Below, piece after piece: positions 11,901 through 54,389 of a stretch of 64,000 bases of DNA. Under the pieces are notes generated by a model, which saw only the letters and a list, made by a program, of their open reading frames with translations, made no database searches and was not told where the DNA came from. The DNA is from Cordylochernes scorpioides. Its lineage: Eukaryota; Arthropoda; Arachnida; Pseudoscorpiones; Chernetidae. The stretch covers positions 74,027,970 through 74,091,969 of the forward strand of contig CP092877.1 in assembly GCA_030710605.1 (NCBI GenBank), in the 5' to 3' direction. Each line of letters opens with the position of its first letter. The first letter of the stretch is position 1. The position numbers were made by a program, and so were the translations under genes.

Positions 11901-14900
11901 AGACACACGAGATAACCAAGTGTATATACACTCATGGACATAATGGGATTCAGGCAATAACTCTGAAAGTTATTAAAGTGGCCTTTATTGAAGACACACG
12001 AGATAACCAAGTGTGTATACACTTATGGACATAATGGGATTCAGGCAATAACTCTGAAAGTTATTAAAGTGGCCTTTATTGAAGACACACGAGATAACCA
12101 AGTGTATATACACTCATGGACATAATGGGATTCAGGCAATAACTCTGAAAGTTATTAAAGTGATCTTTATTGAAGACACACGAGATAACCAAGTGTATAT
12201 ACACTCATGGACATAATGGGATTCAGGCAATAACTCTGAAAGTTATTAAAGTGATCTTTATTGAAGACACACGAGATAACCAAGTGTATATACACTCATG
12301 GACCTAATGGGATTCAGGTAATAACTCTGAAAGTTATTAAAGTGATCTTTATTGAAGACACACGAGATAACCAAGTGTATATACACTCGTGGACATAATG
12401 GGATTCAGGCAATAACTCTGAAAGTTATTAAAGTGATCTTTATTGAAGACACACGAGATAACCAAGTGTATATACACTCATGGACATAATGGGATTCAGG
12501 CAATAACTCTGAAAGTTATTAAAGTGATCTTTATTGAAGACACACGAGATAACCAAGTGTATATACACTCATGGACATAATGGGATTCAGGCAATAACTC
12601 TGAAAGTTATTAAAGTGGCCTTTATTGAAGACACACGAGATAACCAAGTGTATATAAACTGATGGACATAATGGGATTCAGGCAATAACTCTGAAAGTTA
12701 TTAAAGTGACCTTTATTGAAGACACACGAGATAACCAAGTGTATATACACTCATGGACATGATGGGATTCAGGCAATAACTCTGAAAGTTATTAAAGTGA
12801 CCTTTATTGAAGACACACGAGATAACCAAGTGTATATACACTCATGGACAAAACTTAAGGAAGTTGTACCTTTCACCATGTATATCAGGATTCAGACAAT
12901 AGCTCTGAAAGATATTACAGTGATCTTTATTGAAGACACATGAGATAACCAAGTGTATACGCACTCATGGACAAAACTTAAGGAAGTTGTACCTTTTAAC
13001 ATGTATATCGGGATTCAGACAATAACTCTGAAAGATATTACAGCGACCTTTATTGAAGACATACGAGATAACCGAGTGTATATACACTCATTGACAAAAC
13101 TTAAGGAAGTTGTACCTTTTAACATGTATATCGGGATTCAGACAATAACTCTGAAAGATATTACAGTGACCTTTATTGAAGACATACGAGATAACCGAGT
13201 GTATATACACTCATGGACAAAACTTAAGGAAGTTGTACCTTTTAACATGTATATCGGGATTCAGACAATAACTCTGAAAGATATTACAGTGACCTTTATT
13301 GAAGACACGAGATAAGCAAGTGTGTATACACTCATGGATAAAACTTATGGTAGTTGTACCTTTTAGCATGTATATCGGGATTCAGACAATAACTCTGAAA
13401 GTTATTACAGTGATCTTTATTGAAGACACACGAGATAACCAAGTGTATATACACTCATGGACAAAACTTAAGGAAGTTGTACCTTTTAACATGTATATCG
13501 GGATTCAGACAATAACTCTGAAAGATATTACAGTGACCTTTATTGAAGACATACCAGATAACCAAGTGTGTATACACTCATGGACAAAACTTAAGGAAGT
13601 TGTACCTTTTACCATGTACATAACTCTGAAAGATATTACAGTGGCCTTTATTGAAGACACACGAGATAACCAAGTGTATATACACTCATGGACATAATGG
13701 GATTCAGGCAATAACTCTGAAAGTTATTAAAGTGGCCTTTATTGAAGACACACGAGATAACCAAGTGTATATACACTCATGGACATAATGGGATTCAGGC
13801 AATAACTCTGAAAGTTATTAAAGTGATCTTTATTGAAAACACACGAGATAACCAAGTGTATATACACTCATGGACATAATGGGATTCAGGCAATAACTCT
13901 GAAAGTTATTAAAGTGACCTTTATTGAAGACACACGAGATAACCAAGTGTATATACACTCATGGACATAATGGGATTCAGGCAATAACTCTGAAAGTTAT
14001 TAAAGTGACCTTTATTGAAAACACACGAGATAACCAAGTGTATATACACTCATGGACAAAACTTAAGGAAGTTGTACCTTTCACCATGTATATCAGGATT
14101 AAGACAATAGCTCTGAAAGATATTACAGTGATCTTTATTGAAGACACATGAGATAACCAAGTGTATACGCACTCATGGACAAAACTTAAGGAAGTTGTAC
14201 CTTTTAACATGTATATCGGGATTCAGACAATAACTCTGAAAGATATTACAGTGACCTTTATTGAAGACATACGAGATAACCGAGTGTATATACACTCATT
14301 GACAAAACTTAAGGAAGTTGTACCTTTTAACATGTATATCGGGATTCAGACAATAACTCTGAAAGATATTACAGTGACCTTTATTGAAGACATACGAGAT
14401 AACCGAGTGTATATACACTCATGGACAAAACTTAAGGAAGTTGTACCTTTTAACATGTATATCGGGATTCAGACAATAACTCTGAAAGATATTACAGTGA
14501 CCTTTATTGAAGACACGAGATAACCAAGTGTGTATACACTCATGGATAAAACTTAAGGTAGTTGTACCTTTTAGCATGTATATCGGGATTCAGACAATAA
14601 CTCTGAAAGTTATTACAGTGATCTTTATTGAAGACACACGAGATAACCAAGTGTATATACACTCATGGACAAAACTTAAGGAAGTTGTACCTTTTAACAT
14701 GTATATCGGGATTCAGACAATAACTCTGAAAGATATTACAGTGACCTTTATTGAAGACATACCAGATAACCAAGTGTGTATACACTCATGGACAAAACTT
14801 AAGGAAGTTGTACCTTTTACCATGTACATAACTCTGAAAGATATTACAGTGGCCTTTATTGAAGACACACGAGATAACCAAATGTATATACACTCATGGA

Positions 14901-17900
14901 CATAATGGGATTCAGGCAATAACTCTGAAAGTTATTAAAGTGGCCTTTATTGAAGACACACGAGATAACCAAGTGTATATACACTCATGGACATAATGGG
15001 ATTCAGGCAATAACTCTGAAAGTTATTAAAGTGGCCTTTATTGAAGACACACGAGATAACCAAGTGTATATACACTCATGGACATAATGGGATTCAGGCA
15101 ATAACTCTGAAAGTTTTTAAAGTGATCTTTATTGAAGACACACTAGATAACCAAGTGTATATACACTCATGGACATAATGGGATTCAGGCAATAACTCTG
15201 AAAGTTATTAAAGTGACCTTTATTGAAGACACACGAGATAACCAAGTGTATATACACTCATGGACATAATGGGATTCAGGCAATAACTCTGAAAGTTATT
15301 AAAGTGATCTTTATTGAAGACACACGAGATAACCAAGTGTATATACACTCATGGACATAATGGGATTCAGGCAATAACTCTGAAAGTTATTAAAGTGATC
15401 TTTATTGAAGACACACGAGATAACCAAGTGTATATACACTCATGGACATAATGGGATTCAGGCAATAACTCTGAAAGTTATTAAAGTGATCTTTATTGAA
15501 GACACACGAGATAACCAAGTGTATATACACTCATGGACATAATGGGATTCAGGCAATAACTCTGAAAGTTATTAAAGTGATCTTTATTGAAGACACACGA
15601 GATAACCAAGTGTATATACACTCATGGACATAATGGGATTCAGGCAATAACTCTGAAAGTTATTAAAGTGATCTTTATTGAAGACACACGAGATAACCAA
15701 GTGTATATACACTCATGGACATAATGGGATTCAGGCAATAACTCTGAAAGTTATTAAAGTGGACTTTATTGAAGACACACGAGATAACCAAGTGTGTATA
15801 CACTTATGGACATAATGGGATTCAGGCAATAACTCTGAAAGTTATTAAAGTGGCCTTTATTGAAGACACACGAGATAACCAAGTGTATATACACTCATGG
15901 ACATAATGGGATTCAGGCAATAACTCTGAAAGTTATTAAAGTGATCTTTATTGAAGACACACGAGATAACCAAGTGTATATACACTCATGGACATAATGG
16001 GATTCAGGCAATAACTCTGAAAGTTATTAAAGTGATCTTTATTGAAGACACACGAGATAACCAAGTGTATATACACTCATGGACCTAATGGGATTCAGGT
16101 AATAACTCTGAAAGTTATTAAAGTGATCTTTATTGAAGACACACGAGATAACCAAGTGTATATACACTCGTGGACATAATGGGATTCAGGCAATAACTCT
16201 GAAAGTTATTAAAGTGATCTTTATTGAAGACACACGAGATAACCAAGTGTATATACACTCATGGACATAATGGGATTCAGGCAATAACTCTGAAAGTTAT
16301 TAAAGTGATCTTTATTGAAGACACACGAGATAACCAAGTGTATATACACTCATGGACATAATGGGATTCAGGCAATAACTCTGAAAGTTATTAAAGTGGC
16401 CTTTATTGAAGACACACGAGATAACCAAGTGTATATAAACTGATGGACATAATGGGATTCAGGCAATAACTCTGAAAGTTATTAAAGTGACCTTTATTGA
16501 AGACACACGAGATAACCAAGTGTATATACACTCATGGACATGATGGGATTCAGGCAATAACTCTGAAAGTTATTAAAGTGACCTTTATTGAAGACACACG
16601 AGATAACCAAGTGTATATACACTCATGGACAAAACTTAAGGAAGTTGTACCTTTCACCATGTATATCAGGATTCAGACAATAGCTCTGAAAGATATTACA
16701 GTGATCTTTATTGAAGACACATGAGATAACCAAGTGTATACGCACTCATGGACAAAACTTAAGGAAGTTGTACCTTTTAACATGTATATCGGGATTCAGA
16801 CAATAACTCTGAAAGATATTACAGCGACCTTTATTGAAGACATACGAGATAACCGAGTGTATATACACTCATTGACAAAACTTAAGGAAGTTGTACCTTT
16901 TAACATGTATATCGGGATTCAGACAATAACTCTGAAAGATATTACAGTGACCTTTATTGAAGACATACGAGATAACCGAGTGTATATACACTCATGGACA
17001 AAACTTAAGGAAGTTGTACCTTTTAACATGTATATCGGGATTCAGACAATAACTCTGAAAGATATTACAGTGACCTTTATTGAAGACACGAGATAAGCAA
17101 GTGTGTATACACTCATGGATAAAACTTATGGTAGTTGTACCTTTTAGCATGTATATCGGGATTCAGACAATAACTCTGAAAGTTATTACAGTGATCTTTA
17201 TTGAAGACACACGAGATAACCAAGTGTATATACACTCATGGACAAAACTTAAGGAAGTTGTACCTTTTAACATGTATATCGGGATTCAGACAATAACTCT
17301 GAAAGATATTACAGTGACCTTTATTGAAGACATACCAGATAACCAAGTGTGTATACACTCATGGACAAAACTTAAGGAAGTTGTACCTTTTACCATGTAC
17401 ATAACTCTGAAAGATATTACAGTGGCCTTTATTGAAGACACACGAGATAACCAAGTGTATATACACTCATGGACATAATGGGATTCAGGCAATAACTCTG
17501 AAAGTTATTAAAGTGGCCTTTATTGAAGACACACGAGATAACCAAGTGTATATACACTCATGGACATAATGGGATTCAGGCAATAACTCTGAAAGTTATT
17601 AAAGTGATCTTTATTGAAAACACACGAGATAACCAAGTGTATATACACTCATGGACATAATGGGATTCAGGCAATAACTCTGAAAGTTATTAAAGTGACC
17701 TTTATTGAAGACACACGAGATAACCAAGTGTATATACACTCATGGACATAATGGGATTCAGGCAATAACTCTGAAAGTTATTAAAGTGACCTTTATTGAA
17801 AACACACGAGATAACCAAGTGTATATACACTCATGGACAAAACTTAAGGAAGTTGTACCTTTCACCATGTATATCAGGATTAAGACAATAGCTCTGAAAG

Positions 17901-20665
17901 ATATTACAGTGATCTTTATTGAAGACACATGAGATAACCAAGTGTATACGCACTCATGGACAAAACTTAAGGAAGTTGTACCTTTTAACATGTATATCGG
18001 GATTCAGACAATAACTCTGAAAGATATTACAGTGACCTTTATTGAAGACATACGAGATAACCGAGTGTATATACACTCATTGACAAAACTTAAGGAAGTT
18101 GTACCTTTTAACATGTATATCGGGATTCAGACAATAACTCTGAAAGATATTACAGTGACCTTTATTGAAGACATACGAGATAACCGAGTGTATATACACT
18201 CATGGACAAAACTTAAGGAAGTTGTACCTTTTAACATGTATATCGGGATTCAGACAATAACTCTGAAATATATTACAGTGACCTTTATTGAAGACACGAG
18301 ATAACCAAGTGTGTATACACTCATGGATAAAACTTAAGGTAGTTGTACCTTTTAGCATGTATATCGGGATTCAGACAATAACTCTGAAAGTTATTACAGT
18401 GATCTTTATTGAAGACACACGAGATAACCAAGTGTATATACACTCATGGACAAAACTTAAGGAAGTTGTACCTTTTAACATGTATATCGGGATTCAGACA
18501 ATAACTCTGAAAGATATTACAGTGACCTTTATTGAAGACATACCAGATAACCAAGTGTGTATACACTCATGGACAAAACTTAAGGAAGTTGTACCTTTTA
18601 CCATGTACATAACTCTGAAAGATATTACAGTGGCCTTTATTGAAGACACACGAGATAACCAAATGTATATACACTCATGGACATAATGGGATTCAGGCAA
18701 TAACTCTGAAAGTTATTAAAGTGGCCTTTATTGAAGACACACGAGATAACCAAGTGTATATACACTCATGGACATAATGGGATTCAGGCAATAACTCTGA
18801 AAGTTATTAAAGTGGCCTTTATTGAAGACACACGAGATAACCAAGTGATTATACACTCATGGACATAATGGGATTCAGGCAATAACTATGAAAGATATTA
18901 CAGTGGCCTTTATTGAAGACACACGAGATAACCAAGTGTATATACACTCATGGACATAATGGGATTCAGGCAATAACTCTGAAAGTTATTAAAGTGGCCT
19001 TTATTGAAGACACACGAGATAACCAAGTGTATATACACTCATGGACATAATGGGATTCAGGCAATAACTCTGAAAGTTATTAAAGTGATCTTTATTGAAG
19101 ACACACGAGATAACCAAGTGTATATACACTCATGGACATAATGGGATTCAGGCAATAACTCTGAAAGTTATTAAAGTGATCTTTATTGAAGACACACGAG
19201 ATAACCAAGTGTATATACACTCATGGACATAATGGGATTCAGGCAATAACTCTGAAAGTTATTAAAGTGATCTTTATTGAAGACACACGAGATAACCAAG
19301 TGTATATACACTCATGGACATAATGGGATTCAGGCAATAACTCTGAAAGTTATTAAAGTGATCTTTATTGAAGACACACGAGATAACCAAGTGTATATAC
19401 ACTCATGGACATAATGGGATTCAGGCAATAACTCTGAAAGTTATTAAAGTGATCTTTATTGAAGACACACGAGATAACCAAGTGTATATACACTCATGGA
19501 CATAATGGGATTCAGGCAATAACTCTGAAAGTTATTAAAGTGATCTTTATTGAAGACACACGAGATAACCAAGTGTATATACACTCATGGACATAATGGG
19601 ATTCAGGCAATAACTCTGAAAGTTATTAAAGTGATCTTTATTGAAGACACACGAGATAACCAAGTGTATATACACTCATGGACATAATGGGATTCAGGCA
19701 ATAACTCTGAAAGTTATTAAAGTGATCTTTATTGAAGACACACGAGATAACCAAGTGTATATACACTCATGGACATAATGGGATTCAGGCAATAACTCTG
19801 AAAGTTATTAAAGTGATCTTTATTGAAGACACACGAGATAACCAAGTGTATATACACTCATGGACATAATGGGATTCAGGCAATAACTCTGAAAGTTTTT
19901 AAAGTGATCTTTATTGAAGACACACGAGATAACCAAGTGTATATACACTCATGGACATAATGGGATTCAGGCAATAAATCTGAAAGTTATTAAAGTGACC
20001 TTTATTGAAGACACACGAGATAACCAAGTGTATATACACTCATGGACATAATGGGATTCAGGCAATAACTCTGAAAGTTATTAAAGTGATCTTTATTGAA
20101 GACACACGAGATAACCAAGTGTATATACACTCATGGACATAATGGGATTCAGGCAATAACTCTGAAAGTTATTAAAGTGACCTTTATTGAAGACACACGA
20201 GATAACCAAGTGTATATACACTCATGGACATAATGGGATTCAGGCAATAACTCTGAAAGTTATTAAAGTGACCTTTATTGAAGACACACGAGATAACCAA
20301 GTGTATATACACTCATGGACATAATGGGATTCAGGCAATAACTCTGAAAGTTATTAAAGTGACCTTTATTGAAGACACACGAGATAACCAAGTGTATATA
20401 CATTCATGGACATAATGGGATTCAGGCAATAACTCTGAAAGTTATTAAAGTGACCTTTATTGAAGACACACGAGATAACCAAGTGTATATACACTCATGG
20501 ACATAATGGGATTCAGGCAATAACTCTGAAAGTTATTAAAGTGACCTTTATTGAAGACACACGAGATAACCAAGTGTATATACACTCATGGACATAATGG
20601 GATTCAGGCAATAACTCTGAAAGTTATTAAAGTGACCTTTATTGAAGACACACGAGATAACCAAG
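8985..20665 (+). repeat. Giant tandem array of 91-bp and 123-bp units with higher-order structure
   Basis: About 11.7 kb of head-to-tail repeats, well over 100 units. The short unit is 91 bp (GGACATAATGGGATTCAGG ... AACCAAGTGTATATACACTC). The long unit is 123 bp and has 32 extra bases (AACTTAAGGAAGTTGTACC region). Long units cluster in five blocks starting near 9779, 12716, 13924, 16497 and 17705. Landmark variants recur exactly 3,781 bp apart (12301/16082, 12388/16169, 12010/15791, 11358/15139), showing a higher-order repeat. Another variant recurs 7,836 bp apart (11010/18846). Long units are 41 codons and stay open in one frame, but frames break in the 91-bp units, so I regard the array as non-coding. 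Confidence 0.95.
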
Positions 20666-20755
20666 TGTGAACAAACTCTGTCTCCTTCAAAAAAGAAAAA
20701 ATAGACGACCGGCGATATCAAAATATGAAATTTCCGTAAGTTGTGTTAACGAGTG
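20666..20755 (+). mobile_element. Right end of the S element that contains the giant array
   Basis: Directly after the last unit come the S-specific end sequence (GACGACCGGCGATATC, in the same order as the unique block of other S copies) and a diverged right TIR ending GAGTG next to TA. The array therefore sits inside an S element. The matching left TIR is not recognisable at 8985. Confidence 0.65.
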
Positions 20756-23525: not shown

Positions 23526-23839
23526 TATATATACAGTTATCAGCGTCATAATCAATTCTTTCTTAATCAATTCTGTCACCGTTTGCTTTTGTGAATGGAA
23601 TAAATACCCAAATATGGCCATTTCTCATACCCATCGGTGGTTCAGTGGTAGAATGCTCGCCTGCCACGCGTTCGATTCCCGGCCGATGCATTTTTTTTTT
23701 TTTTTACAATTTTTAAAATTCCTTTATATATTATACAAGAATGACATCCACGGCGCCAATTTATAATTGTAACGAATAGTATTTGAATAAAAGCATTTAA
23801 TCGGGTAAAACCCGGGCGTTGCCCGGGCCATTCGGCTAG
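23526..23839 (+). mobile_element. Non-autonomous Helitron, copy 2, carrying a tRNA-Gly pseudogene
   Basis: The 5' part matches copies 1 and 3 (TATATACAGTTATCAGCGTC, CACCGTTTGCTTTT), and the 3' end has the CGGGCGTTGCCCGGGCCATT hairpin region and CTAG followed by T. The middle differs: a tRNA-Gly-like sequence with a T run replaces the internal palindrome of the other copies. The first base pair of the 5' TC is mutated (TA). Confidence 0.7.
23631..23690 (+). pseudogene. tRNA-Gly(GCC) pseudogene inside a Helitron
   Basis: ATCGGTGGTTCAGTGGTAGA, CTCGCCTGCCACGCG and TTCGATTCCCGGCCGATGCA match animal tRNA-Gly(GCC) almost exactly, but about 11 bases of the variable region and 5' T stem are missing and the first base is changed. 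The A box (TGGTTCAGTGG) and B box are present and a T run follows, so pol III signals remain although the cloverleaf is broken. Confidence 0.85.
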
Positions 23840-24022
23840 TTTTTAATATAAAATGCTTTCATGATATTATTTTTATTATCAATTGTTTAATTACATAACT
23901 CTCTAATATAGAATTTATGCTGAAAACTCCATTTTAAAGGTTGAAATTTACAAATAAATTTCCCTATTTACATATCTGTAAACACAAAGCAATAACGCGC
24001 CATCTATACATATAAAATGAAA

Positions 24023-24215
24023 GGATTTAAAAGCACGAATGTTTCTTTTATACATAATAGAAACTTCTACTGCCCTTACTGCGATTAAAAAAATATATTG
24101 GAGTTCTTGGCTCATCAGTGGTGAACCCTCCCAGCGGTTTCGCCTAGTTTAATCTACCTGACCTGCTTCTCAGAGCTCTAATACTGTATTGGATGATTCT
24201 GATTCTATACGCAGC
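24023..24215 (-). repeat. K repeat copy, decayed
   Basis: Minus-strand K copy with CTGATGAGCCAAG and GGCGAAACCGCTGGGAGG, but substitutions break helices I, II and III. It lies next to the better copy at 24475, with shared flanking sequence (TCTCAGAGCTCTAATACTG). Confidence 0.65.
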
Positions 24216-24474
24216 ACTGAAGGATGGAATCTCAGAAATGATTTTCAAGAAAACTATGGACATAAGCTTATAGAAAAGTAGAATTACATTGAAATATTTG
24301 CATCGAGCAATGCTCTTCCGCAAACAATAAAGACAAGGCCAGTTAGGCATGAATTAACACGAATCAATAAGGCGCCATCTATACATATAGAATGAAAGGA
24401 TTTAAAAACACGAATGTTTCTTTTATACAAAATACAAACTTCTTCTGCCCTTACTGCGATGAAAAAAATATATT

Positions 24475-24542
24475 GGGAGGTCTTGGCTCATCAGTGCTTA
24501 ACCCTCCCAGCGGTTTCGCCAATTTAATCTACCAGACCGCTT
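24475..24542 (-). ncRNA. K-family hammerhead-like motif, UUGGC subtype
   Basis: Minus strand: AGCGGT then C (GTC cleavage triplet), TGGT, linker AGATTAAA, TTGGC, GAA, ACCGCT, spacer, AGCA, CTGATGA, GCCAA, then CCTCCC pairing with GGGAGG. Helix II is TTGGC/GCCAA, where the copies at 25365 and 28204 have CTGG(C/T)/GCCAG. Helix I has one mismatch. See the finding on the K family. Confidence 0.5.
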
Positions 24543-24667
24543 CTCAGAGCTCTAATACTGTATTGGATGATTCTGCTTCTATACGCAGTACTGAAGGATG
24601 GAATCTTTTGTGTGAATAGTTAATTTTAATTCACAGAGTAATATATGAGAAAAATATGTTAAAAAGA

Positions 24668-24762
24668 AGAAAGGTCAGGTGTTAATATCAAAAACAAAAT
24701 AAACATTTCCTGACCGCTCCCATGAGCTTTTTAGATAGCAGAGCGCCATCTAGTGGAACAGA
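24668..24762 (+). repeat. F1 family fragment
   Basis: AAAGGTCAGGTGTTAATATC, TTTCCTGACCGCTCC and the GCAGAGCGCCATCTAGTGGA hairpin, shared with F1 copies. Confidence 0.6.
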
Positions 24763-24934
24763 AATTATTGTTAAATAATGGTTTTATTCATATTCAAATG
24801 TACAACCTTGTTTACACATGTATTATAATATTGTGTGTAATTGAGAAATATCGATTTTTTTTGTTGAATTAACATTAAATTTGCTAATGAAATATATATA
24901 TATCGTAATTTAAACAATGTGATATGTAAGTAAT

Positions 24935-25320
24935 AAAGTTATGACGTCCTTTCTAGTCGTCTCAAAGTGACACCAGCTTGCGACCGGACACTTGGGGGAT
25001 CCAGGTAGGGAAAAAAAGGGCGTTGGTCCAGATGTTGACAGTTAGTTAGGGGACAGTGGATATTTTCGGACAGCCCCGCTCAGTGGTAGGCCATCATCAT
25101 CTCACGACGGTCCCCGCGGTTTCAGGCTGGACGCCGAGCTTTCCTCAGTTAATCCTCAACTTTCCCCTGGTCCTGGTGCTACGTGAGACGTACTAGGAGA
25201 GCGTCTTTTGACCCCAAACTTTGTCCTTACTGTCCCGTGCGGACTTCCCACTCTGCACGCCTTGCCACTCAACCCCGACTGCTTCCAACACACTTGTCTT
25301 ACCCGGGTTTACGACATATA
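24935..25320. other. GC-rich block of unknown origin
   Basis: Conspicuously richer in GC than its surroundings, with no long open frame. It could be an LTR or a fragment of an element inserted whole, but I see neither terminal repeats nor protein similarity. Confidence 0.4.
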
Positions 25321-25364
25321 TTTTCCAAAATAAATTTATAATTGTATTTTAAGTATAAATATAA

Positions 25365-25432
25365 CAGCGGTATGGTAGATTAAACTGGTGAAACCGCTGG
25401 GAGGGTTCACCACTGATGAGCCAGGACCTCCC
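25365..25432 (+). ncRNA. K-family hammerhead-like motif, most complete plus-strand copy
   Basis: Strand order: CAGCGGT (25365-25371), A at the cleavage position (25372), TGGT (25373-25376), linker AGATTAAA, CTGGT (25385-25389), GAA (25390-25392), ACCGCTG (25393-25399), spacer, ACCA (25409-25412), CTGATGA (25413-25419), GCCAG (25420-25424). All three hammerhead helices form (7, 4 and 5 pairs) and both core strands are intact. GGGAGG/CCTCCC (25399-25404 with 25427-25432) can form an alternative closing stem. Confidence 0.55.
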
Positions 25433-25584
25433 ATTAATTTTTTTCCATTGCAGTAAGGACAGTAGAAATTGTTTATTTTTAGAAATAATCATACACGTCT
25501 ATAATAGTTTCGAATTTTGATAAATATAGTCATAATTGGGTTTGTATGATAAGCGATAGAGAAATAAATATAAATAACTTATTA

Positions 25585-25880
25585 TAAAGGACTGCGGCTT
25601 ATGATTATAAAACAACACTTAAAGTTTCACGGCATAAGTTTCTTTTCTGTGAAAAATCAATATTTATTTCAAAGAAATAAAAAAAAAAAAAAGTTAGAAA
25701 TAGTAAATATTTCTCTTTGAGGACACTTTTATTTTTCCGTTCGCCATTACTCTTCATATTTTCACCCTTTCATACTTCATCCAAAAAAAGTTAGAAATAG
25801 TAAATATTTCTCTTTGAAATAAATATTGATTTTTCACAGAAAAGAAACTTATGCGGTGAAACTTTAAGTGTTGTTTTATA
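25585..25880. mobile_element. Foldback element F4, copy b, without tRNA
   Basis: Arms match those at 4735-5372 (AAGTTTCTTTTCTGTGA on the left, TCACAGAAAAGAAACTT on the right). The interior is shortened but keeps CCGTTCGCCATTACTCTTCA. A mariner lies directly next to its right end. Confidence 0.7.
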
Positions 25881-25895
25881 AATAACTTATATATA

Positions 25896-27219
25896 CAAGG
25901 GTCGTTCCAAAGGTTTTTGCAATCAATATTAAATAATTAAAATATTAAAAAATAAATTATACCATTAAAATCTACATGCATTTTTTACCTAACATAAACA
26001 TTTTCATAAAATAGTAACATAAATGATTCATAGAGGGCGCGACTTTGTTAACAGCGTCAGCGGTAATTTCTAAACATTGCATCAGACACAATGGAGTTTA
26101 CTAGAGAAAGTTTACGCGCCATGATTTTGTATGATTATAAAAGTAATTTAACTTTTAAAGAACTCACAATGAAAGATTGATCAAAGCTTTAGGAGATAAA
26201 GCTCCTTCTATTAGAACAGTTTTTAATTGGTTTAATGAATTTAAATTTGGAAAAACCAACCTTGAAGATGAACCTCGTTCAGGTCGACCACCAACAGCAG
26301 TTATCCAAAATATAATTGAGCTGGTAAGATTTTTACTTAGAGAAGATCGAAGAATTACCTATCAGCAGTTAGAGAAATATGTGGGCATTGGATCGGCAGC
26401 AATCAACACCATCATTAATTATCATTTAAAATACAGAAAACTTATTAGTAGATGGTTACCTCACAGCTTGACTGAAGACCAAAAACTTGGTCGCGTTAAA
26501 TGGTGTAATTTCATTTTGAAAAATTTTATGAAGGCAAATCAAAGGCTGTTTTTAATATTATTACAGGTGACGAAACTTGGATTTACAATTTTGATCCAGA
26601 AACAAAACGGCAATCTACTCTTTGGTGCTCTTCAATAATACCTCCTCCTAAGAAAGTTCGCAGAGCTCGAAGTGTTGGAAAACAAATGGTTGCCTGTTTT
26701 TTTTTTTTAGAAAAAGTGGTTTCATTGATATTCAGAAGTTAGAAGATCGAAAGACAGTTAATAGTGACTGGTATACAACAAAATGCCTTCCAGCAGTATT
26801 TGAAAAAATCAAGCAAAGCAGACCAAGAGCTCAACTTAGAGGAGTCCTTCTTCACCATGACAATGCAAGACCGCACACCTCAGCCCAAACATTAGACTTT
26901 TTAGCCAACTCTGGTGTCCAATTAGTCACTCATCCACCATATTCACCAGACCTAGCACCTTGTGACTTTTCTTTATTCCAAAAGTTAAGTTATTGTTGAA
27001 AGGGATAAAATTTGACACTGATGATGAAGCACTGCAAGCCTTTATCAATGCCGTAAATTCATCCCCGAAGATGACTGGTGTAAGTGCTTTGATAATTGGT
27101 TTACAAGGATGAAATCTTGCATAGGTGCTAAGGGTGAATACTTTGAGAAACTCTGAAAATTTGAAAGTTTCAGCTTTAATAAAAATAAGTGATTGCAAAA
27201 ACCTTTGGAATGAGCTTTT
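25896..27219 (+). mobile_element. mariner element, 1.3 kb, both ends present
   Basis: TIRs of about 30 bp (GTTCCAAAGGTTTTTGCAAT on the left at 25896-25926, complement at 27190-27219), each next to a TA (25894-25895 and 27220-27221), the mariner target duplication. Length and single-gene layout are typical of mariner. The transposase inside is frameshifted. Confidence 0.9.
26091..27156 (+). pseudogene. mariner transposase, frameshifted
   Basis: Begins ATGGAGTTTACTAGAGAAAG, giving MEFTRESLRAMI, a usual mariner N-terminus. A frame change near 26165-26177 precedes the helix-turn-helix part (SIRTVFNWFNEFKFGKTNL, LEDEPRSGRPP, and SRWLPHSLTE). A second change after 26530 leads to the catalytic GDETW block; the HHDNARPHT block and the YSPDLAPCDFSLF block follow, giving the three-aspartate (DD34D-type) layout. 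Another single-base loss lies near 26978 and a T run near 26695 may be a further lesion. The last residues end at TGA 27154-27156. The enzyme cannot be made intact from this copy. Confidence 0.9.
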
Positions 27220-27221
27220 TA

Positions 27222-28130
27222 GATCAATATTCTAACGTAAAATTCCCCACATATCTAATAGACCAATCAATTAAATAATAAAAAAATGTAAATGGTCTAC
27301 AAATGTTTACGCTCTAAATAGGTTACCACGAGTTATAAAAGAAATATTTAGTAGAAATTTATAGTCCCTGCCAATTAGTAAACGCCTCTACAGCACACAA
27401 AAAAAGGTTATAACAGCTTGGGAGCAAAGCACTTTTTAAACTTAAAAAATTTATATAGCTCCAGAGAAAAATTCCATTTAAAATTCACAAGCACGCTTCC
27501 TTTCCTCAACTTTTAAACAAAGCCTTTTTTTAAGGGAAAGAGGTGAATTTATTTTTTAAAAGTTGAGCGGCGGAAGTTTTGTGCCCCTATTTTTATTCTT
27601 TTTTTTTGTCGAGGAAATACCTTATATGCTTTGGATAGAGTTACATAAGTCATTGTTATATCTTATTGGAAGGTAGATATATTCAAACTGGAATAATTGT
27701 GTAGATTCATTGTAACATCAATAATTTATTGTAGACATATCTCTGCCTTTAAATGGAGTCAATGCATTCTCACACTTTGGGGTTTGCTCTTCCGTTATTT
27801 TTTAATCTTAATTTCTTCATTACAATTTTTACTATGGATAAATAGATCTATACTGACCTATTAAATGGTGATTTTTAGATGGCATAGCTCCATCCATTAT
27901 AATAAATATCAACTATACGTTCAATTCGGTTTTTTTCATTACTTATTCCCTTTATAAAAAAATCAATAATACATAAAGGTTAAGTTTCTTGTACAATTTT
28001 CAATTTATCAATATTTCAGAACTATCATCCCTTCAACTGGAATATCACATGGAGAGCTTGCACCCAGCTGATTAGTCCCTAGGCATGAGATACAAAGTTG
28101 TACAATAAACTTAGCTTTCAAAGTACAAAA
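27222..28130. other. No feature recognised
   Basis: AT-rich, no coding signal. A faint F1-like hairpin (AGATGGCATAGCTCCATC) lies near 27877. Confidence 0.4.
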
Positions 28131-28203
28131 CTATTCTAGACGCGTAATATTCTTTTTAAAATAAAACAATTTCTACTGCCCTTACTGCAATGGAAAAATT
28201 AAA

Positions 28204-28271
28204 GGGAGGGCCTGGCTCATCAGTGGTGAACCCTCCCAGCGGTTTCGCCAGTTTAATCTACCATACCGCTG
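28204..28271 (-). ncRNA. K-family hammerhead-like motif, minus strand
   Basis: Same order as 25365-25432 on the opposite strand: CAGCGGT, A, TGGT, linker, CTGGC, GAA, ACCGCTG, spacer, ACCA, CTGATGA, GCCAG, with the extra stem GGGAGGG/CCCTCCC. All pairings are Watson-Crick here. The K tail (TTGCAGTAAGGGCAGTAG) follows. Confidence 0.55.
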
Positions 28272-28532
28272 TTATATTGCATTTTTTGGAACTTCCTTTT
28301 ATAGTGATACTAATGCTTGACTCTTCGAATGGGTATTTTAGATTAACTATGTACATAAGCTTTTAAGACAGCAGAATTACATATAATAATAAATATATAA
28401 TATGCTTCGAGCAATCGTTCTTCCGCATATATCAATTTGTGTCTTTTATTCAAACATTTATTTTACAATGCACTAGCGCGCCATCTGTTATCAAAGTACA
28501 AAACTATTCTAGACGCGTAATATTCTTTTTAA

Positions 28533-28816
28533 CACTTTCGACCCGAGGGACGTGATTTCGCATCCTTGCCGATTTTGCCTCAAGCCCGAAGGACGTGAAT
28601 TCGCGTCCTCGATTTTCAAAATTAAATATAAAATCGTCGGCGGCTGACACGAATTCACACCCACCAGGATCTTGTTCCATACCTTCTTGCCTATCTATCA
28701 GTAGGTTGGGGGGATGTCAGCTGACCTAATATACCTGTAAAACTTTACGTGAGATCGTCATTCCATCAGCCCCTATTGCCTCCTATACAACTGAAGAATC
28801 GTCAGTCCTCAAAGTG
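28533..28816. mobile_element. piggyBac-type MITE inserted in a K repeat
   Basis: Flanked by TTAA on both sides (28529-28532 and 28817-28820). Ends are CACTTTCGACC and its partial inverse CCTCAAAGTG. Internal repeats read GAGGGACGTGATTTCGC and GAAGGACGTGAATTCGC. The flanks join to restore the K sequence ..ATTCTTTTTAA/AAACAATTT.., so it landed inside an existing K copy. TTAA duplication and CAC..GTG ends are typical of piggyBac. No transposase. Confidence 0.8.
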
Positions 28817-29039
28817 TTAAAAAAAAAAAAACAATTTATATTGCCCTTACTTGGCGCGTAAAACTTAGCTTTGGATGCATTATTGATTTTATTAAATCTA
28901 TATTCTGATATATAAAGAGTAATTAAAGTGAACATATCAGGCTCATCTAGGAATAAAAAAGAAACTTATACCTGGAAGACTGATGTTTTATCTTAATATT
29001 GACATAAAGGATCAATAAATAGCAATAACGCGCCATCTA

Positions 29040-29600
29040 TATGATAAAAATGAAAACACCAAAACGCGAATTTTTCTTTTCACAAATAAATCAAATTTGG
29101 ACTGTTTTTATTGCGATGAAAAAATATTGGGAGGGCTTGGCTCATCAGGGATGAACCCTCCCAACGGTTTCGCCAATTTAATCTACCCGACCGCTTCTTC
29201 AGAGCTCTAATACTCTTTTGAATCATCCTACTTTTATATGCAACACTGAAGGGTGGAATCTTAGAAATGGTATTTAAGCAAACTATGTACATAAGCATTT
29301 AGGACAGTAGAATTACATTTAAATATTTGCATCGAGTAATTATCTTCCTCTTCTTCTACTATCCTAAAAGCATATGTCCATAGTTTGCTTAAATACCATT
29401 TCTAAGATTCCACCCTTCAGATTTGCCTATAAAAGCAGAATGGTTCAATACAGTATTAGAGCTCTAAAGAAGCGGTCTGGTAGATTAAATTAGCGATACC
29501 GTTGGGAGGGTTCACCACTGATGAGCCAACCCCTCTCATTATTTTTTCATCGCAATAAGGACAGTAGAAGTTTTCAAAATTCGAAACTATTATAGACGCG
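29040..29600. repeat. Pair of inverted K repeats (foldback)
   Basis: A minus-strand K copy (29040-29300) and a plus-strand copy (29330-29600) face each other and share flanks such as GGAATCTTAGAAATGGTATT. The plus copy has GATA in place of the GAAA core and a broken helix II, so it is decayed. Confidence 0.7.
29129..29196 (-). ncRNA. K-family hammerhead-like motif with compensatory change in helix I
   Basis: Minus strand: AAGCGGT, C (GTC triplet), GGGT, linker, TTGGC, GAA, ACCGTT, spacer, ATCC, CTGATGA, GCCAA. Helix I is GGGT/ATCC where other copies have TGGT/ACCA, and helix II is TTGGC/GCCAA, so base changes on one side are matched on the other. Confidence 0.5.
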
Positions 29601-29943
29601 TATGATTATTTTGTAAATTACACAATTTCTACTGCCCTTACTGCAATGGAAAAATTAATGGGAATTTGTTCTATTTGTGAAAAGAAAGATTCGCGTTTTG
29701 GTGTTTTTATTTGTAATATAAGGGATTATTTTTATCGAAATCTCTTTTTTGTTTTCTATACATAGTTTTATTCTCATTTTTCCTTAGAATGTTTAACCTC
29801 TTACATATAATTTTTTCCCTTTATTTTAATAAAAATGAAAAATGAACTAATTGTTGTAAATATATTTAATGCCACTTTTTTTTTTCTTTCTCCTTGTTAT
29901 TATCATATGACTATACTTTACTGCTTAAAATTACTGTAAATAT

Positions 29944-30092
29944 ACGGGGCTCTGGCACATTTGTAAGTGCAAAGTCGAACTGCTTTCACATGTGTAGACA
30001 TGTGGGGCGCTTACAGTAAAAAGCAGTCGCTAACTACCCACCATAAATATCATGGACTGTACCACGTGTACTAGGGATAAGCAAAAAAAAAA
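29944..30092 (+). mobile_element. SINE, 5'-truncated copy with TSD
   Basis: 3' half of the SINE described at 48482, ending ACTAGGGATAAGC plus an A run. Flanked by 11-bp direct repeats ACTGTAAATAT at 29933-29943 and 30093-30103. 5' truncation with a TSD is what LINE-driven retrotransposition leaves. Confidence 0.85.
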
Positions 30093-32598: not shown

Positions 32599-35500
32599 TT
32601 AACCATGAGGTGAGGAGTCCGAGTCACTTAGGTGATCGGAATCCTCCGCGCGGACGCGTGGCTTAAGTCTATCAGAGGCCTTTAGGAACTCCAGGCAGGC
32701 TCGCCAAGTGCTCCTGTTGAAAATAAAGTCTTTGAGTGACCGCGGAGTGTACCCTAATTCTTCTGCACAGGTGGAAAGAAGGGGGAATCTAAGGGCATCA
32801 AGACTGCTGCACTCAAGCACGATGTGAGACAGAGTTTCTTCCCTGTCGGCGTCGCAGTAAGGGCAGGAAGGATCGTCAATGACGCCTATCCTGTGGGCGA
32901 AACTGTCCGTCCACGTGTGTCCCGTTAGCAGGCCTACCACAATGTGCTCGCTAGGGACGATGTACGCATACCTTTTGTCTAAAAGACTCATTGGAGTAAG
33001 GCCAAAGCGGGTGTGGATAGAAGGAGCTAGAGAGAGGAATCTGCTTTCCCATGCTTCACGCGCCCGGCCGTAGATTGCCGATTTTACAAACGACAAAGGA
33101 GCGAGTTTGTAACAGCTTGGGTCAGCAGACTCAGCACCCCGCTTTGCGAGTGTGTCCGCAATGTCATTACCCACGTTCCCACTGTGGCCCTTGATCCATT
33201 GTATGGTGCATCTGTTCCCGTTGCGATTCAATCGCGAAATCAGTAGCAGAGCTCTGTCAATAAGGTAATTACCAGTCTTAGAGTTCAGAACTGACTTCAC
33301 GACTGAGAGGTTGTCCAGGAAGAATCCTAAGGTTAGATGATTAGGTAAAGTGGTTGCGTTTTCAAGAGCCTTAACCAATCCAAGGGCTTCCGCCTGAAAG
33401 ACAGAACAATGAGGGGACAGAACATGAGATTCACGTATTTCAGGTGCACAATCGAGACAAGAGAACCTGTACACGCCGGCGCCAACTCCATCTCTGGTTT
33501 TGGAACCATCTGTATAGTATGCCACGTGGAAGAAAAGAGCAGGAATATTACTGGGAGCGGAGTAATAGGGGGGGTAGGGGAGAGGATGTGGAAAGGGAGG
33601 AGGCTCGAGTGGAATTTCAGCGTCAACCAATCCATACTTTTTAAGGTATAGCTCAGTTTTAGCCAAGATTTCCAGATCGAGAGGAAGGACTCTGGAGAGG
33701 GAGATTAGAGCAGCGTTGCTGGTTGATCTGAAAGCTCTACAAGCTCTCACTAGGAAAGGCCTTTGAGCACTCAGTAGAACATTCAAGGAGCGTTGAGAAA
33801 GATTAGGAAACCAAACCGCCGAGGCATAGGCAATGGCCGGAACAACCACTTGCAGATACAGAGTTCTCAAGGCGCGGTAACCAAAACCAAAGTTGAGATT
33901 AGCGGCTGCGGTCAAACGCGGCAACATGCCGCGGACCTTGGCGCAGACTTCAACTACGTGCTGGTAGAAAGATAGACGTTGATCAAATCTCACTCCCAGC
34001 ACCTTAATTGAGTCGCACCATTGGATTGGCCGTCCGTGGATAACCAGATCCCGGCGCGGTTCAGGCAGTCTCCCGTGTGGTCTGAGGAGAACCATAGCCT
34101 GGCACTTCCCCACGCTGAGTTCCAGTTTATGCAAACTGCACCACCTAGCGATCATATCTATGGTGTGTTGGGCCGCGGGAAGTTGACTAGGTCGGCATCC
34201 CGAGACCACCACGACCAGATCATCCGCGTAGGCTTGCGGGAAAACATTATTCCTGTAGTCCAGCGTGAGGAGTTCATCAAAGACAATATTCCAAAGGAAT
34301 GGGCCGAGAACTGAACCCTGGGGACATCCTTTGGAAATTCGTCTCGACACAGTACAACCATTCATAGATAGTCTCACAACACGGTTACATAGAAACGAGT
34401 TTATCAGGTGATAAATGTTTCTGGGACAGACGCTTTTGTGCAACGCTCTCAAGATACTGGAGTGGAGCACGTTGTCAAAAGCGCCTTTAACATCAAAAGA
34501 AAGAAGAAGACAAGATTTCCTATTTTTAATCGTCCGGGTTATAGTAGATTTTAGATTTAAGAGTGCGGCTGTAGTAGATCTACAAGGCTTAAATCCGAAC
34601 TGGTTTGGAGGCGCTTTACACATCCTATCGGCCATCCACGACAGCCTAGCAAGAATTAGACGCTCAAGGATCTTGCCCAAACCAGGCAGCATCGTGATTG
34701 GACGGTGTGATGCGAGAAAGTCCTCCCCACTTCGCTTGGGGACGAGAACGACGTCCCCCAGCTTCCATGTAGATGGAAAGTGGCCAGTGGTTAAACACAT
34801 GTTGAAAATACTTAGAAAAAACGTCCGAAAATGTTTAACTAGTTTTACGATAAGAAGAGGTGGCATGCCATCACTACCAGGAGAAGAAGATAAGTTTACC
34901 TTATCCGCTGTCAACAACAACTCGTTATCTGTAAACAAAGGGTCGTTATCAGATGACGATGCGATGACTTTGCTTAAATCTTTGTGTTCTAACATGGTAT
35001 CGGCCGGGACGCGGCCGAAATAGTAATCTAATACGTGATTTAATGTGTCCCGCGGACCTTCAGTGAAGCCGCTACCAACTGGGAGAGCTGAGAGGGGTTT
35101 GCGCTTAAAATTTCCCTTGATGAAACTGTAGATTCCACCCCAAGGGCTGATTTCGCAACGCGAGCAGGCTGCCCTCCATGCTTCTTTCTTAGCCAGTCTC
35201 CTCGCACGGCGATATCTTGCCTTCAGTCTTTTGTAAAAGACCTCCAGCACACCCTTAACGACACCGCGTGCCTTTATAAAGGCCCGCTGTGCCTTTTGAG
35301 TGGCTCTTTTGAGAGGATTCAAATCAGATTTCCACCAAGAGATGGACTTGAGGTATTTATCACTTCTGGGACGGGATGGAATGGTGTTTAGACATGTGTG
35401 AAAAATCTCTTCGCCGAGTAAATTAATTACATCGTCGAGGGAGGATGAGTCACGCACATTTTCTAAAAAAAGATTAATATTTTCTATTTTTTGGCTGAAA

Positions 35501-36279
35501 TGTTCAAAAACTCTATCCCAGTCAGCGCGACCAAAGCTGAAGTATATTTCGCTAAATTTGTTTAATTTAAATCTGGTGTTGTCCTGTGAAGAGGGAGCAA
35601 AATTGAGGTTAAAGACGAGGCGTTTGTGGTCAGACAACTCCTGGTACTCAGGATGCCAATCGGTAACGCTATTTACAAGGCCAGCACTACAGCAAGTGAC
35701 GTCGATGGAAGAAGAGCGGTTGCCCTCCTCCCACGTCACCGCGCCGTGAGTGTTGAGCACATGCAAATAGTTGGCATCAATAAAGTTTTCAACTAGATCT
35801 CTCTTAGGTGAGTGATGCCTGAGGAGCAGAGGTTTATCCGACCACCTAATAGATTCAACATTTAGATCGCCGCAAAAAATGACCTCGTCATAGTTCAGAG
35901 AATTAAGGCTAAAATTTATCTTATCGAGAAGAGGGGAGGGATCACATGATGGCGGAAGGTAAACATTACAAAGAAGAATACTTTTACCACTCAATTCACA
36001 CATGACAAACACGACATTAACACTGGACAAATGAGACAAATGGACAAATTTAAGGCTAGGATTTACTACAATGACCATAGCTCCCAACCTAGAGTTTGTA
36101 ATAGGGCCATAGCAAACTCTGTTAGATGGGATTGGCAGCGATGGGATTTTGCCGCGCGCGGCTGGGAGCTCTTGTAAAAGTAGTAAATCTATGTTCTCCT
36201 CACGACAATCATTCAATACTGAATACAAACAAGGCTGAGAGCGTCTTATATTGATTTGTAGGCACTTGAAAACAATCAT
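32599..36279 (-). CDS. LINE ORF2: endonuclease, reverse transcriptase, RNase H
   Basis: 1,226 residues, uninterrupted. An APE-type endonuclease fills residues 1-225 (QIN at 8-10, QE at 36-37, GDLN at 137-140, SID at 191-193, SDH at 216-218). Reverse transcriptase spans about 440-730, with FDVKGAFD at 595-602, GCPQGSVLGP at 651-660 and catalytic YADD at 684-687. RNase H spans about 918-1050 with the acidic set D924, E964, D989 and D1039. A CPYC..H..EC zinc motif lies at 1139-1157. EN-RT-RNase H order with a C-terminal zinc motif is the plan of the I/R1/LOA group. The start ATG overlaps the ORF1 stop as ATGA (36276-36279), suggesting coupled translation. It would nick target DNA and copy the element RNA in the nucleus. 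All catalytic residues that I can check are present. Confidence 0.95.
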   Translation of the reverse strand: MIVFKCLQINIRRSQPCLYSVLNDCREENIDLLLLQELPAARGKIPSLPIPSNRVCYGPITNSRLGAMVIVVNPSLKFVHLSHLSSVNVVFVMCELSGKSILLCNVYLPPSCDPSPLLDKINFSLNSLNYDEVIFCGDLNVESIRWSDKPLLLRHHSPKRDLVENFIDANYLHVLNTHGAVTWEEGNRSSSIDVTCCSAGLVNSVTDWHPEYQELSDHKRLVFNLNFAPSSQDNTRFKLNKFSEIYFSFGRADWDRVFEHFSQKIENINLFLENVRDSSSLDDVINLLGEEIFHTCLNTIPSRPRSDKYLKSISWWKSDLNPLKRATQKAQRAFIKARGVVKGVLEVFYKRLKARYRRARRLAKKEAWRAACSRCEISPWGGIYSFIKGNFKRKPLSALPVGSGFTEGPRDTLNHVLDYYFGRVPADTMLEHKDLSKVIASSSDNDPLFTDNELLLTADKVNLSSSPGSDGMPPLLIVKLVKHFRTFFLSIFNMCLTTGHFPSTWKLGDVVLVPKRSGEDFLASHRPITMLPGLGKILERLILARLSWMADRMCKAPPNQFGFKPCRSTTAALLNLKSTITRTIKNRKSCLLLSFDVKGAFDNVLHSSILRALHKSVCPRNIYHLINSFLCNRVVRLSMNGCTVSRRISKGCPQGSVLGPFLWNIVFDELLTLDYRNNVFPQAYADDLVVVVSGCRPSQLPAAQHTIDMIARWCSLHKLELSVGKCQAMVLLRPHGRLPEPRRDLVIHGRPIQWCDSIKVLGVRFDQRLSFYQHVVEVCAKVRGMLPRLTAAANLNFGFGYRALRTLYLQVVVPAIAYASAVWFPNLSQRSLNVLLSAQRPFLVRACRAFRSTSNAALISLSRVLPLDLEILAKTELYLKKYGLVDAEIPLEPPPFPHPLPYPPYYSAPSNIPALFFHVAYYTDGSKTRDGVGAGVYRFSCLDCAPEIRESHVLSPHCSVFQAEALGLVKALENATTLPNHLTLGFFLDNLSVVKSVLNSKTGNYLIDRALLLISRLNRNGNRCTIQWIKGHSGNVGNDIADTLAKRGAESADPSCYKLAPLSFVKSAIYGRAREAWESRFLSLAPSIHTRFGLTPMSLLDKRYAYIVPSEHIVVGLLTGHTWTDSFAHRIGVIDDPSCPYCDADREETLSHIVLECSSLDALRFPLLSTCAEELGYTPRSLKDFIFNRSTWRACLEFLKASDRLKPRVRAEDSDHLSDSDSSPHG

Positions 36280-37538
36280 TTGACTATCGACTTATTGAAC
36301 TGATCCTGGGCATCTCGCATGTGCTTGCACATCATGGAGTTGGCATTGTGCTTGTCACCGCACCTGTGACACTTAAGCGCGCTTTTATTTTCACAGGCAG
36401 TGGTAAGATGTGCACCTGCACAATTGGCGCACTTGGGCGCATTGGTGCACTTTTTACCATCAGTGTGCGTCCTGTGAGAGAGGCTACCGCAGATACCACA
36501 TGGGAAGACGCGTTTCGCCTGGGCGAGCCTGAGGGACAGGAAGTCAACAGTGACGCGGCCGCGTGCAAGGAGAGCTTCCTCGATACCCTTATTGACCTCT
36601 ATGATAGCGGTGGAAGGCAAACCTTCCTTCCTAATCAATTTAACCAGCTTCAAGCCGCCGCTGTTATTAATTAACTGCGGGGCTATCACAGGGTTTTCCA
36701 TCAGATCAGACACCAGATCAGATTCAGATTTTTCGACAGGGATGCCGAAAATTGCCAACCTGGGCCTGAATGTCGGGTTTGGTAGGACTTTAAGTCCGTC
36801 AATGTTGGCGGTCTTAAATCCGTCCACAAACCGCTTTGATTATGCAGAATTGGGAAAGTGAAGGACAAGTTTTTTGTCCTTCCCAGTTACCGCCGTCACA
36901 TCACAACTCTTCAACTGTGGAGTCTTGGCAATTTTGGCTCTGATGGCCTCGAAAGATAAGGTGTCTGAGCCAATTTTTACATGGTTTACACTGTTCTTTA
37001 ACGTCTGCGCGTAGGTTGAACGCGCTGGCACTCTAGGGTGTACAGTTGTGGGTTGGTTGGACCTAATTTGGATAGCAGAAGTATCAGGTTGGGGGATCAT
37101 TTTAACGGGGTTAGGAGGAGAGGGAGGCTTGGCCAACCTTTTCCTAAGTTGGATGACCTCATTTTCAACTATTTTTACATTTTTTTTGAAGATTCTTAAC
37201 ACTTCAGTTTGTAAAGCGTTAAAAATACGCCTTACATCGTCTTTCACTGAGTCAGATAACCCAGTGCGGGTGGTAGCAGGAAGGTTAGAGGCAGCGATAT
37301 CCGCTACCTCATGAAAATTTTTGTTGAAAAGAGAATCTATCTCTTCCCAGCAGTCAGAGGATCCAGAATGGGTACAGGAAGGAATGGAAGTAGGGGCCTG
37401 GGGGATCTTACCTTGGGCAGTCCTATTAATAGGAGCGGAGACCTCTTCGGCCACGGTCCCAGGACTTGTGGAGGGCTCCAAAGGTGGGAATGGGTCGTCA
37501 GCTGACATGGCCCGCGTCTGCCGGCGAGTAAAGACCAT
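36276..37538 (-). pseudogene. LINE ORF1 (gag-like), one in-frame stop
   Basis: Starts at ATG 37536-37538 (MVFTRRQTRAMSADD) and runs 232 codons to TAA at 36840-36842. The same frame continues for 187 more codons to TGA at 36276-36278. The second part (36276-36827) has three CCHC-type zinc knuckles near its end (CGICGSLSH.., CANCAGAHLTTAC, CHRCGDKHNANSMMC), the RNA-binding signature of I/Jockey/R1 gag proteins. The first part is hydrophilic with a proline-rich stretch around residue 140. Because the frame is unbroken apart from one stop, this is either a single nonsense mutation in a recent copy or readthrough; I favour the mutation. Confidence 0.85.
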
Positions 37539-37629
37539 CTTGTATCTTGTCTCTTCGTGGTTGTTATGGTAGTCAGTCGTTGTAAAAAAAAAAAAAAAAA
37601 TTATATATATATATATATTTTTTTAGGCT

Positions 37630-45004: not shown

Positions 45005-45190
45005 ATCGCGCCATCTGTTATGAAAATTAGAAACTATTCTAGACGCGTAAGATTCTTTTTGAAATTAAACAATTACCACTGTCCTTACTACAATGGAAAA
45101 ATTAAAGGGAGGACCTGGATCATCAGTGGTAAACCCTCCTAGCGGTTTCGCCAGTTTAATCTACCATACTGCTGTTATATTGCATTTTTT
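45005..45190 (-). repeat. K repeat copy
   Basis: Minus-strand K copy with helix I TGGT/ACCA intact but GATGATCC instead of GATGAGCC and a mismatch in helix III. Flanks match the 28.2-kb copy (AACTATTCTAGACGCGTAA). Confidence 0.65.
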
Positions 45191-45749: not shown

Positions 45750-46215
45750 TCCAATATTATCTCTACAAACATCTCTGCAATTATATAGATTATTGATTGA
45801 GAAAGGGCTTGTCTCATCAATGACGAACCCTCTCAGCAGTTTCGCCAAATAAATATTTGATCTTATCGATAAATCCCAATGGAATTTATAAATGTAATTT
45901 ACTAATAAATTGCTTTAATATAAAACCATATTTGTGGAATAGCATTTCTCGATGTAATTTATTGTAATTTTATGTATATGCAACTATACAGACCTATAAA
46001 CTTATGTCCATAGGTTCCCTAAACACCCCTAAGCTGTCTTCCATAGTGAATATAGTAAATTCAGTGTATATAAGAAAAACCAATTCAATACAATAGTAGA
46101 GCGGTCTAGAGGTTAATTTGACGAAACCGCTGAGAGAGTTCACCAATGACGAGCCAAACCCTCTTATTCAATAACCTTTATCATTGCAATAAGGTCTGTA
46201 GAGATATTATTTAAT
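45750..46215. repeat. Pair of inverted, older K repeats
   Basis: The left (minus) copy has GGCGAAACTGCTGAGAGGG and TTGATGAGACAAG; the right (plus) copy has AGAGCGGTCTAGAGG, GACGAAACCGCTGAGAG and AATGACGAGCC. Both have changes in the core or helices. Tails TTGCAATAAGGTCTGTAGAG resemble 40018. Confidence 0.6.
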
Positions 46216-46284
46216 GCTATTTGTCAAACGAAACATACATTACCAAAGTAGTATAACAAATTTTATAGAAACTTATATAATGAC

Positions 46285-46440
46285 AATATAATGGTAGATT
46301 AAACTGGCGAAACCGCTGGAAGGGTTCACCACTGATGAGCCAGGTCCTCCCATTAATTTTTCCATTGCAGTAAGGGCAGTAGAAATTGGTTAATTTCAAA
46401 AAGAATCTTACGCCTTTAAAATAGTTTCGATTTTTGATTT
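46285..46440 (+). repeat. K repeat copy, 5'-truncated
   Basis: ATGGTAGATTAAACTGGCG through CTGATGAGCCAGG to the tail; the CAGCGGT strand with the cleavage position is missing. Confidence 0.65.
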
Positions 46441-50523: not shown

Positions 50524-50727
50524 TATTAAAAAACGAAATAAAAAATAAAAGATAAAAAGATCAGGTGTTAAAATCAATATAAAAAAATGGCATATCCTGA
50601 CCAGGAGCACATGTGCTTTACAGAAGGCAGAGCGCCATCTGGTGGAACAGAAATCAACTAAACATTGATTTAGCCTGTTCCCTGATATTTGGCCAACCCA
50701 ATTTCTTGATAAATCAAGAAAAGCCAT

Positions 50728-54357: not shown

Positions 54358-54389
54358 TTTTTGATTTAAGACGAATAATCCTTTCAATA

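Follow-up and report, generated by a model that had tools for sequence, protein, structure and literature searches.

A hammerhead ribozyme with its conserved blocks in the order cleavage site (S), GAAA (G) and CUGAUGA (C), termed type SGC, was published in 2023 by Eckert et al. and cleaves in vitro (PMC10085705). That study predicted 583 type-SGC sequences, five of which were cleaved at the predicted site. In SGC-3, the sole construct so tested, cleavage required four helices, including one linking the other side of stem I to that of stem II (PMC10085705). The spacing between this fourth helix and stem III ranges from 0 to 44 nt, and the 0-nt case, displayed by few sequences, is hard to fit to the crystal structure (PMC10085705). 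Almost all motifs of that work derive from metatranscriptomes; the genome of a known organism yielded one type-GCS candidate only, and type-SGC motifs, found in no known organism's genome, come from environmental RNA with unknown hosts (PMC10085705). In animals, metazoan non-LTR retrozymes (Cervera and de la Peña 2020) are described as tandem units of 170-400 nt that carry type I hammerheads and co-occur with Penelope-like elements (PMC7229834). Here we describe a pseudoscorpion repeat family, K, which from its sequence is likely to be a non-autonomous, retrozyme-like retroelement of about 375 nt with a type-SGC hammerhead as its catalytic part.

The window is a 64,000-nt stretch of the genome of Cordylochernes scorpioides, and one of its retrotransposon proteins matches a protein of that species at 99% identity. 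It harbors a K copy at 25365-25432 (+) with every part of a hammerhead core present in the block order cleavage site, GAAA, CUGAUGA. Block S opens with the 5' strand of stem III, CAGCGGT (25365-25371, assigned from sequence and pair counts), the last T of which is U16.1. It is followed by H17 (A25372) and the 5' strand of stem I, TGGT (25373-25376). From the hammerhead core, cleavage is predicted between A25372 and T25373 (GTA^TGG). An S-G linker of 8 nt (25377-25384) leads to block G (25385-25393), consisting of the 3' strand of stem II, CTGGT (25385-25389), and GAAA (25390-25393); the 3' strand of stem III, ACCGCTG, occupies 25393-25399. At 0 nt from stem III lies GGAGGG (25400-25405), which we matched to the text of PMC10085705 as the 5' strand of the fourth helix, the stem I-II interaction. 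Block C (25409-25424) comprises the 3' strand of stem I, ACCA (25409-25412), CTGATGA (25413-25419) and the 5' strand of stem II, GCCAG (25420-25424). The 3' strand of the fourth helix, ACCTCC (25426-25431), has one mismatch to GGAGGG and reads CCCTCC in the copy at 28223. Stems I and II would cross stem III, and the fourth helix would link stem I to stem II. The original prediction had placed the strands of the hammerhead in this order (a-c-b in its notation), pseudoknotted within one RNA, and the parts lie where it put them.

Two of its readings do not survive comparison with the published ribozyme. The connectivity, held to be undescribed, is that of type SGC, and GGGAGG/CCTCCC, taken for a competing stem, matches the fourth helix of that type, which connects stems I and II on their other sides. 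With type SGC (the HRIMA-1 motif and its variants), K shares the S-G-C order, a full core, stems I-III, the fourth helix and the 0-nt spacing. K differs in its S-G linker, which is 8 nt as opposed to typically 3 nt in the published set, and in stem I, which has 4 bp (3 in subfamily D) versus 5 in HRIMA-1. Furthermore, K resides in animal genomic DNA at high copy number, whereas almost all the published motifs are metatranscriptomic. The catalytic topology is already known; the animal-genome setting, the large number and the near-identical copies appear to be new. A search that left most subscription papers outside its reach found no literature linking a hammerhead ribozyme with a pseudoscorpion, and the accessible parts of PMC11167929, PMC13096302 and PMC11722881 make no mention of a permuted hammerhead.

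Twelve CTGATGA motifs occur in the window, 10 of them inside K copies, and two further K copies are degenerate. A subfamily A copy at 28195-28279 (-) has an intact core and all four helices intact. The subfamily B copy at 29120-29204 (-) has stem I as GGGT/ATCC with an intact core, and lies head to head with a B copy at 29462-29546 (+). Two more B copies form a head-to-tail pair with a 375-nt period: one, at 24090-24175 (-), is decayed and the other, at 24466-24550 (-), has one stem I mismatch. Besides the copy at 25365 (+), the a-c-b order had been predicted at 28204 (-), 29129 (-) and 24475 (-); it holds at 25365, 28204 and 29129, and the copy at 24475 is imperfect, with a G-G mismatch in stem I. 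Decay is evident in several window copies: A14 is changed in the copy at 29518 (29462-29546), and the 5' arm of stem III is absent at 3868 and 46332. The former of these two (3812-3896, +) is truncated within block S and fused to an inverted tail, and the latter (46276-46360, +) belongs to subfamily A. Another A copy, at 45098-45182 (-), has two mismatches in stem III and one in stem II. A degenerate subfamily D copy (46091-46174, +; ATGACGA) stands head to head with a degenerate copy that is D-like by eye (45792-45876, -), and a divergent copy at 52348-52416 (-) has, by eye, lost GAAA. Elsewhere in the genome, a degenerate K-like sequence at L031:5793-5882 has a different 7-bp stem III, ACAATAG/CTATTGT, perfectly complementary by eye, and is perhaps an old subfamily.

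A custom descriptor allowing the a-c-b order, proposed as a check by the original prediction, was fitted by three window copies. In its strict form (core plus 4 bp in stem I, 5 bp in stem II and 6 bp in stem III), it gave 3 S-G-C matches and 0 in other orders within the window; 5011 dinucleotide shuffles gave 0 S-G-C matches and 7 matches over all six orders. Relaxed to 4, 4 and 5 bp in stems I, II and III, it returned the same 3 window matches, together with 8 S-G-C matches and 46 across all orders in the 5011 shuffles. Since the three window matches represent one family, they are counted as one event. Scanning the whole window at Rfam gathering scores revealed one tRNA and nothing else. E-value scans of window parts gave no hammerhead match to K copies, with none in 23800-30000 up to E=10; the K ribozyme escapes Rfam scans of the kind made here. 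Two K patterns searched against viral contigs and a 123-bp K query searched against phages returned no match; both searches may have excluded records close to the genome of the window.

Conservation was assessed on an alignment of 60 copies; 61 had passed score and length limits that excluded shorter or weaker matches, and L044 was omitted for its long A-run insertion. Rows came mostly from best-hit lists and are therefore not a random sample. Over the 54 distinct copies, 90.5% of pair cells were paired, a level reached in 0 of 500 shuffles and compared with 31-54% when the structure was slid by 1-3 columns. By helix, the values were 86.1% for stem III, 95.8% for stem I, 93.7% for stem II and 89.5% for the fourth helix in these 54 copies. 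Cells changed on both sides of a pair numbered 23, versus 7.8 (sd 2.2) in shuffles (0/500 as high) and 4-8 in slid controls, with 15 of the 23 tracing to one inherited C-G to U-A change. Pairs with double changes numbered 7; the figure was 3.8 in shuffles, 11/500 of which reached 7, and slid controls gave 4-6. Additional pair types were not above shuffles (128/500). Stem III had a single doubly changed cell among the 54 distinct copies, and the nine window copies alone gave a weak covariation signal. Overall, the covariation is partial, supporting stems I, II and IV and hardly stem III through few independent events. Both double changes named in the original prediction, one in helix I and one in helix II, are real, and the additional copies strengthen stems I, II and the fourth helix. 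The whole core, fully paired stems I and II and at most one stem III mismatch coexist in 21 of the 54 distinct copies. In four of six copies inspected, the lowest-energy nested fold contained stem III and the GGGAGG/CCTCCC hairpin, with the partners of stems I and II left in loops or in weaker local pairs.

Decay weighs less on a comparison between subfamilies. Nine substitutions and one deletion separate subfamily A from D, and six of the substitutions combine into three compensated pairs, with stems I, II and IV having one apiece. When changes were placed at random outside the core, three compensated pairs arose in 102 of 300,000 trials, a somewhat favorable figure because D was noticed for changes that looked compensated. 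Between A and B there is one compensated pair, a result that random placement equaled in 18,099 of 300,000 trials. Counting against the model, the B and D consensus leaves the outermost pair of stem III open, and D lacks the fourth pair of stem I. In copy L039, stem II reads TTGTC/GACAA. Across 12 A-B copy pairs, identity was 87% in the ribozyme stretch, 59% upstream and 68% in the tail; upstream identity is about 63% (mean of eight values) when copy 25413, which has no upstream homology, is left out. Within B, five copy pairs gave the small contrast of 89% in the ribozyme stretch and 85% upstream. CTGATGA and GAAA were kept in all 20 B copies fetched (20 of 41 best-match rows), and three further D loci matched the query at 100% identity along 161 nt.

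The linker around GATTAAA comes close to the core in conservation, and A, B and some D copies have a TATA-like box upstream, features that would suit a conserved DNA or promoter box, or a non-catalytic structured RNA, resembling a hammerhead by chance. Such a chance likeness is very improbable in our estimation: the strict descriptor found no S-G-C match in 5011 shuffles, two of the three compensated A-D pairs fall in helices that cross stem III, and the A, B and D consensus keeps every core nucleotide intact (CUGAnGA, GAAA, U16.1-H17).

A separate question is whether the active form would be the pseudoknotted monomer or a canonical hammerhead assembled across two units, with strands a and b from one and c from the next. 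Some K units are in tandem, and vertebrate retrozyme hammerheads are described as acting best as dimers (PMC7229834). A two-copy fold is unneeded. A single 68-nt unit accommodates all four helices with short linkers, and the fourth helix bears a compensated change; tandem pairs are few (5 of 21 neighbors), and the published assays of SGC forms used single units (PMC10085705). We judge the two-unit form decidedly improbable and favor the type-SGC monomer.

Head-to-tail copies have a period of 375 in the window (24118/24494) and of 378 in a D pair with two identical, intact ribozymes. The period is 371 at L036, with a first unit that includes K only in part, and 373-375 at 28223, preceded by a tail piece only. 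The longest open stretch in a tripled K unit is 76 aa, and GC content is 37%. At their 3' ends, 17 of 20 B copies lose likeness just after CCTTTCATTTTATA(T) and 3 of 20 continue into AGATGGCGC, which directly follows the usual K 3' end. In a set of 48 oriented copies from several subfamilies, 18-21 of 47 alignments to the A reference stop at +103 to +108 from the core. By eye, 5' ends of B copies vary. In the five longest, likeness starts at unit positions 72, 96, 121, 125 and 140 with a common 3' end at 150, such that they exceed one turn by 10-78 nt; an inverted copy precedes the one starting at 121. The joining of units head to tail, the shared 3' end, the varied 5' starts and the copies exceeding one turn together suggest a retrozyme-like retroelement that would use a type-SGC hammerhead to excise RNA units copied as circles or multimers. 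Head-to-tail and more-than-one-turn copies are the pattern expected from reverse transcription of circular or multimeric RNA, and multimeric transcripts could give rise to the head-to-tail copies even if no circles form.

In four truncated copies (L037:9697, L033:9957, L008:2342 and window 46332), the 5' homology start coincides by eye with the predicted cleavage site. No clear pile-up of 5' breakpoints was seen there by eye, and such clustering was dropped as evidence because several junctions have microhomology and other copies start elsewhere. The number of copies compared is also small.

Neighboring K copies are most commonly head to head (11 of 21, with 5 of 21 head to tail), an excess that a simple circle model does not predict. 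Head-to-head copies lie 19-262 bp apart at L008, L010, L011, L021, L024 and window 29148/29518. This arrangement, along with fold-back junctions and tail-only palindromes, would fit a fold-back or MITE-like DNA element carrying the type-SGC hammerhead as a passenger, unused for RNA circles. We regard that origin as unlikely, since a shared 3' end combined with varying 5' ends, head-to-tail units and copies longer than one turn mark reverse transcription of circular or multimeric RNA, and a DNA element has no need of a conserved RNA core. The head-to-head pairs may instead arise from template switching during reverse transcription, which we rate above a fold-back element on account of the 3' and 5' ends of K.

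The retrozyme-like retroelement that we prefer resembles metazoan retrozymes (PMC7229834) in its unit length (371-378 nt at four loci, the first unit being incomplete at two of them), its lack of a long ORF, its occasional head-to-tail arrangement, its one hammerhead per unit and the presence of a Penelope-like ORF in the same genome. It is unlike them in carrying a type SGC rather than a type I hammerhead, and in its few tandem copies and many inverted pairs. Because K departs from the type I feature of animal retrozymes, we file it as a variant of them.

The same window holds a tandem array of type I hammerheads, with a 351-bp period, 3.3 copies and 99% matches (50525-51665). Its three ribozymes lie at 50713-50779 (-), 51064-51130 (-) and 51415-51481 (-); the first scores 38 bits with Rfam HH9, below the gathering score of 52. 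An inverted relative adjoins at 51961-52026, and all of these fall below the Rfam gathering score. The array and K share a genome, a similar unit size and a downstream AGATGGCGC, located 109-114 nt from the core in the four K copies that have it and at 122 nt in the three type I copies. Their ribozymes differ, canonical type I in the array versus SGC in K, and blasts show no relation over the ribozyme. By bare count, GCGCCATCT has 15 occurrences in the window (e.g., 24372, 50632 and 51774). The GCGCCATCT/AGATGGCGC motif resembles the arthropod CTCF site.

An ORF at 54849-56303 (-) encodes RVT_1 (reverse transcriptase) and GIY-YIG domains, a combination from which we take it to be Penelope-like, and it is a possible source of enzyme for K. 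By eye, the RT/GIY-YIG ORF has inverted repeats of about 280 bp on either side (54380-56690). Penelope pseudo-LTRs as the carrier of K were an early idea that was not retained, with no K copy demonstrated beside a Penelope ORF. Other repeats in the window include a large satellite of 11.7 kb (9011-20668), scored with 91-bp units and 123-bp sub-arrays and having related short arrays elsewhere in the window. A Mariner-like transposase remnant with a Mos1-type HTH match, frame-broken by eye, lies at 26159-27150, and beside it are two 71-nt inverted arms (25605-25675 and 25811-25881). A non-LTR retrotransposon spans 32599-37622 (-), with endonuclease, RT and RNase H domains in its ORF at 32599-36291.

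Abundance was estimated in the 2.62-Gb assembly of 24 contigs. Candidates from the genome search numbered at least 2760 for subfamily A, at least 4086 for B and at least 391 for D, in lists that may overlap. Ten 10-kb stretches at round coordinates (L039-L048) gave six matches with E < 0.001, some degenerate; scaling yields approximately 150,000 copies, an estimate that has a wide error and far exceeds the listed candidates. By this rough extrapolation, K, a repeat of about 375 nt, has perhaps 10^5 copies.

As a retrozyme-like element, K would be transcribed head to tail and cut in every unit at GGUM^UGGU (GGUC^UAG in subfamily D). Monomers would then be closed into circles, probably by a host ligase, and the reverse transcriptase of another element may copy the circle from a fixed start, giving insertions that range from 5'-truncated to more than unit length. 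We lean, with some reserve, toward the view that an animal genome has amplified a retroelement to approximately 10^5 copies by way of a non-circularly permuted, doubly pseudoknotted hammerhead. If so, K would provide the first known genomic occurrence of a type-SGC ribozyme, and would represent a second, topologically different route to RNA-circle retrotransposition beside the type I retrozymes of the same genome. With both hammerhead topologies present in one genome, in mobile units of similar size, a direct comparison is possible. Arthropod elements of this kind could also be the origin of, or related to, the type-SGC RNAs that have been seen in metatranscriptomes only. A named animal with numerous near-identical, intact-looking copies makes the biology of type SGC testable, including cleavage in vivo, circular RNA, the enzyme responsible for spreading and the origin of the permutation.
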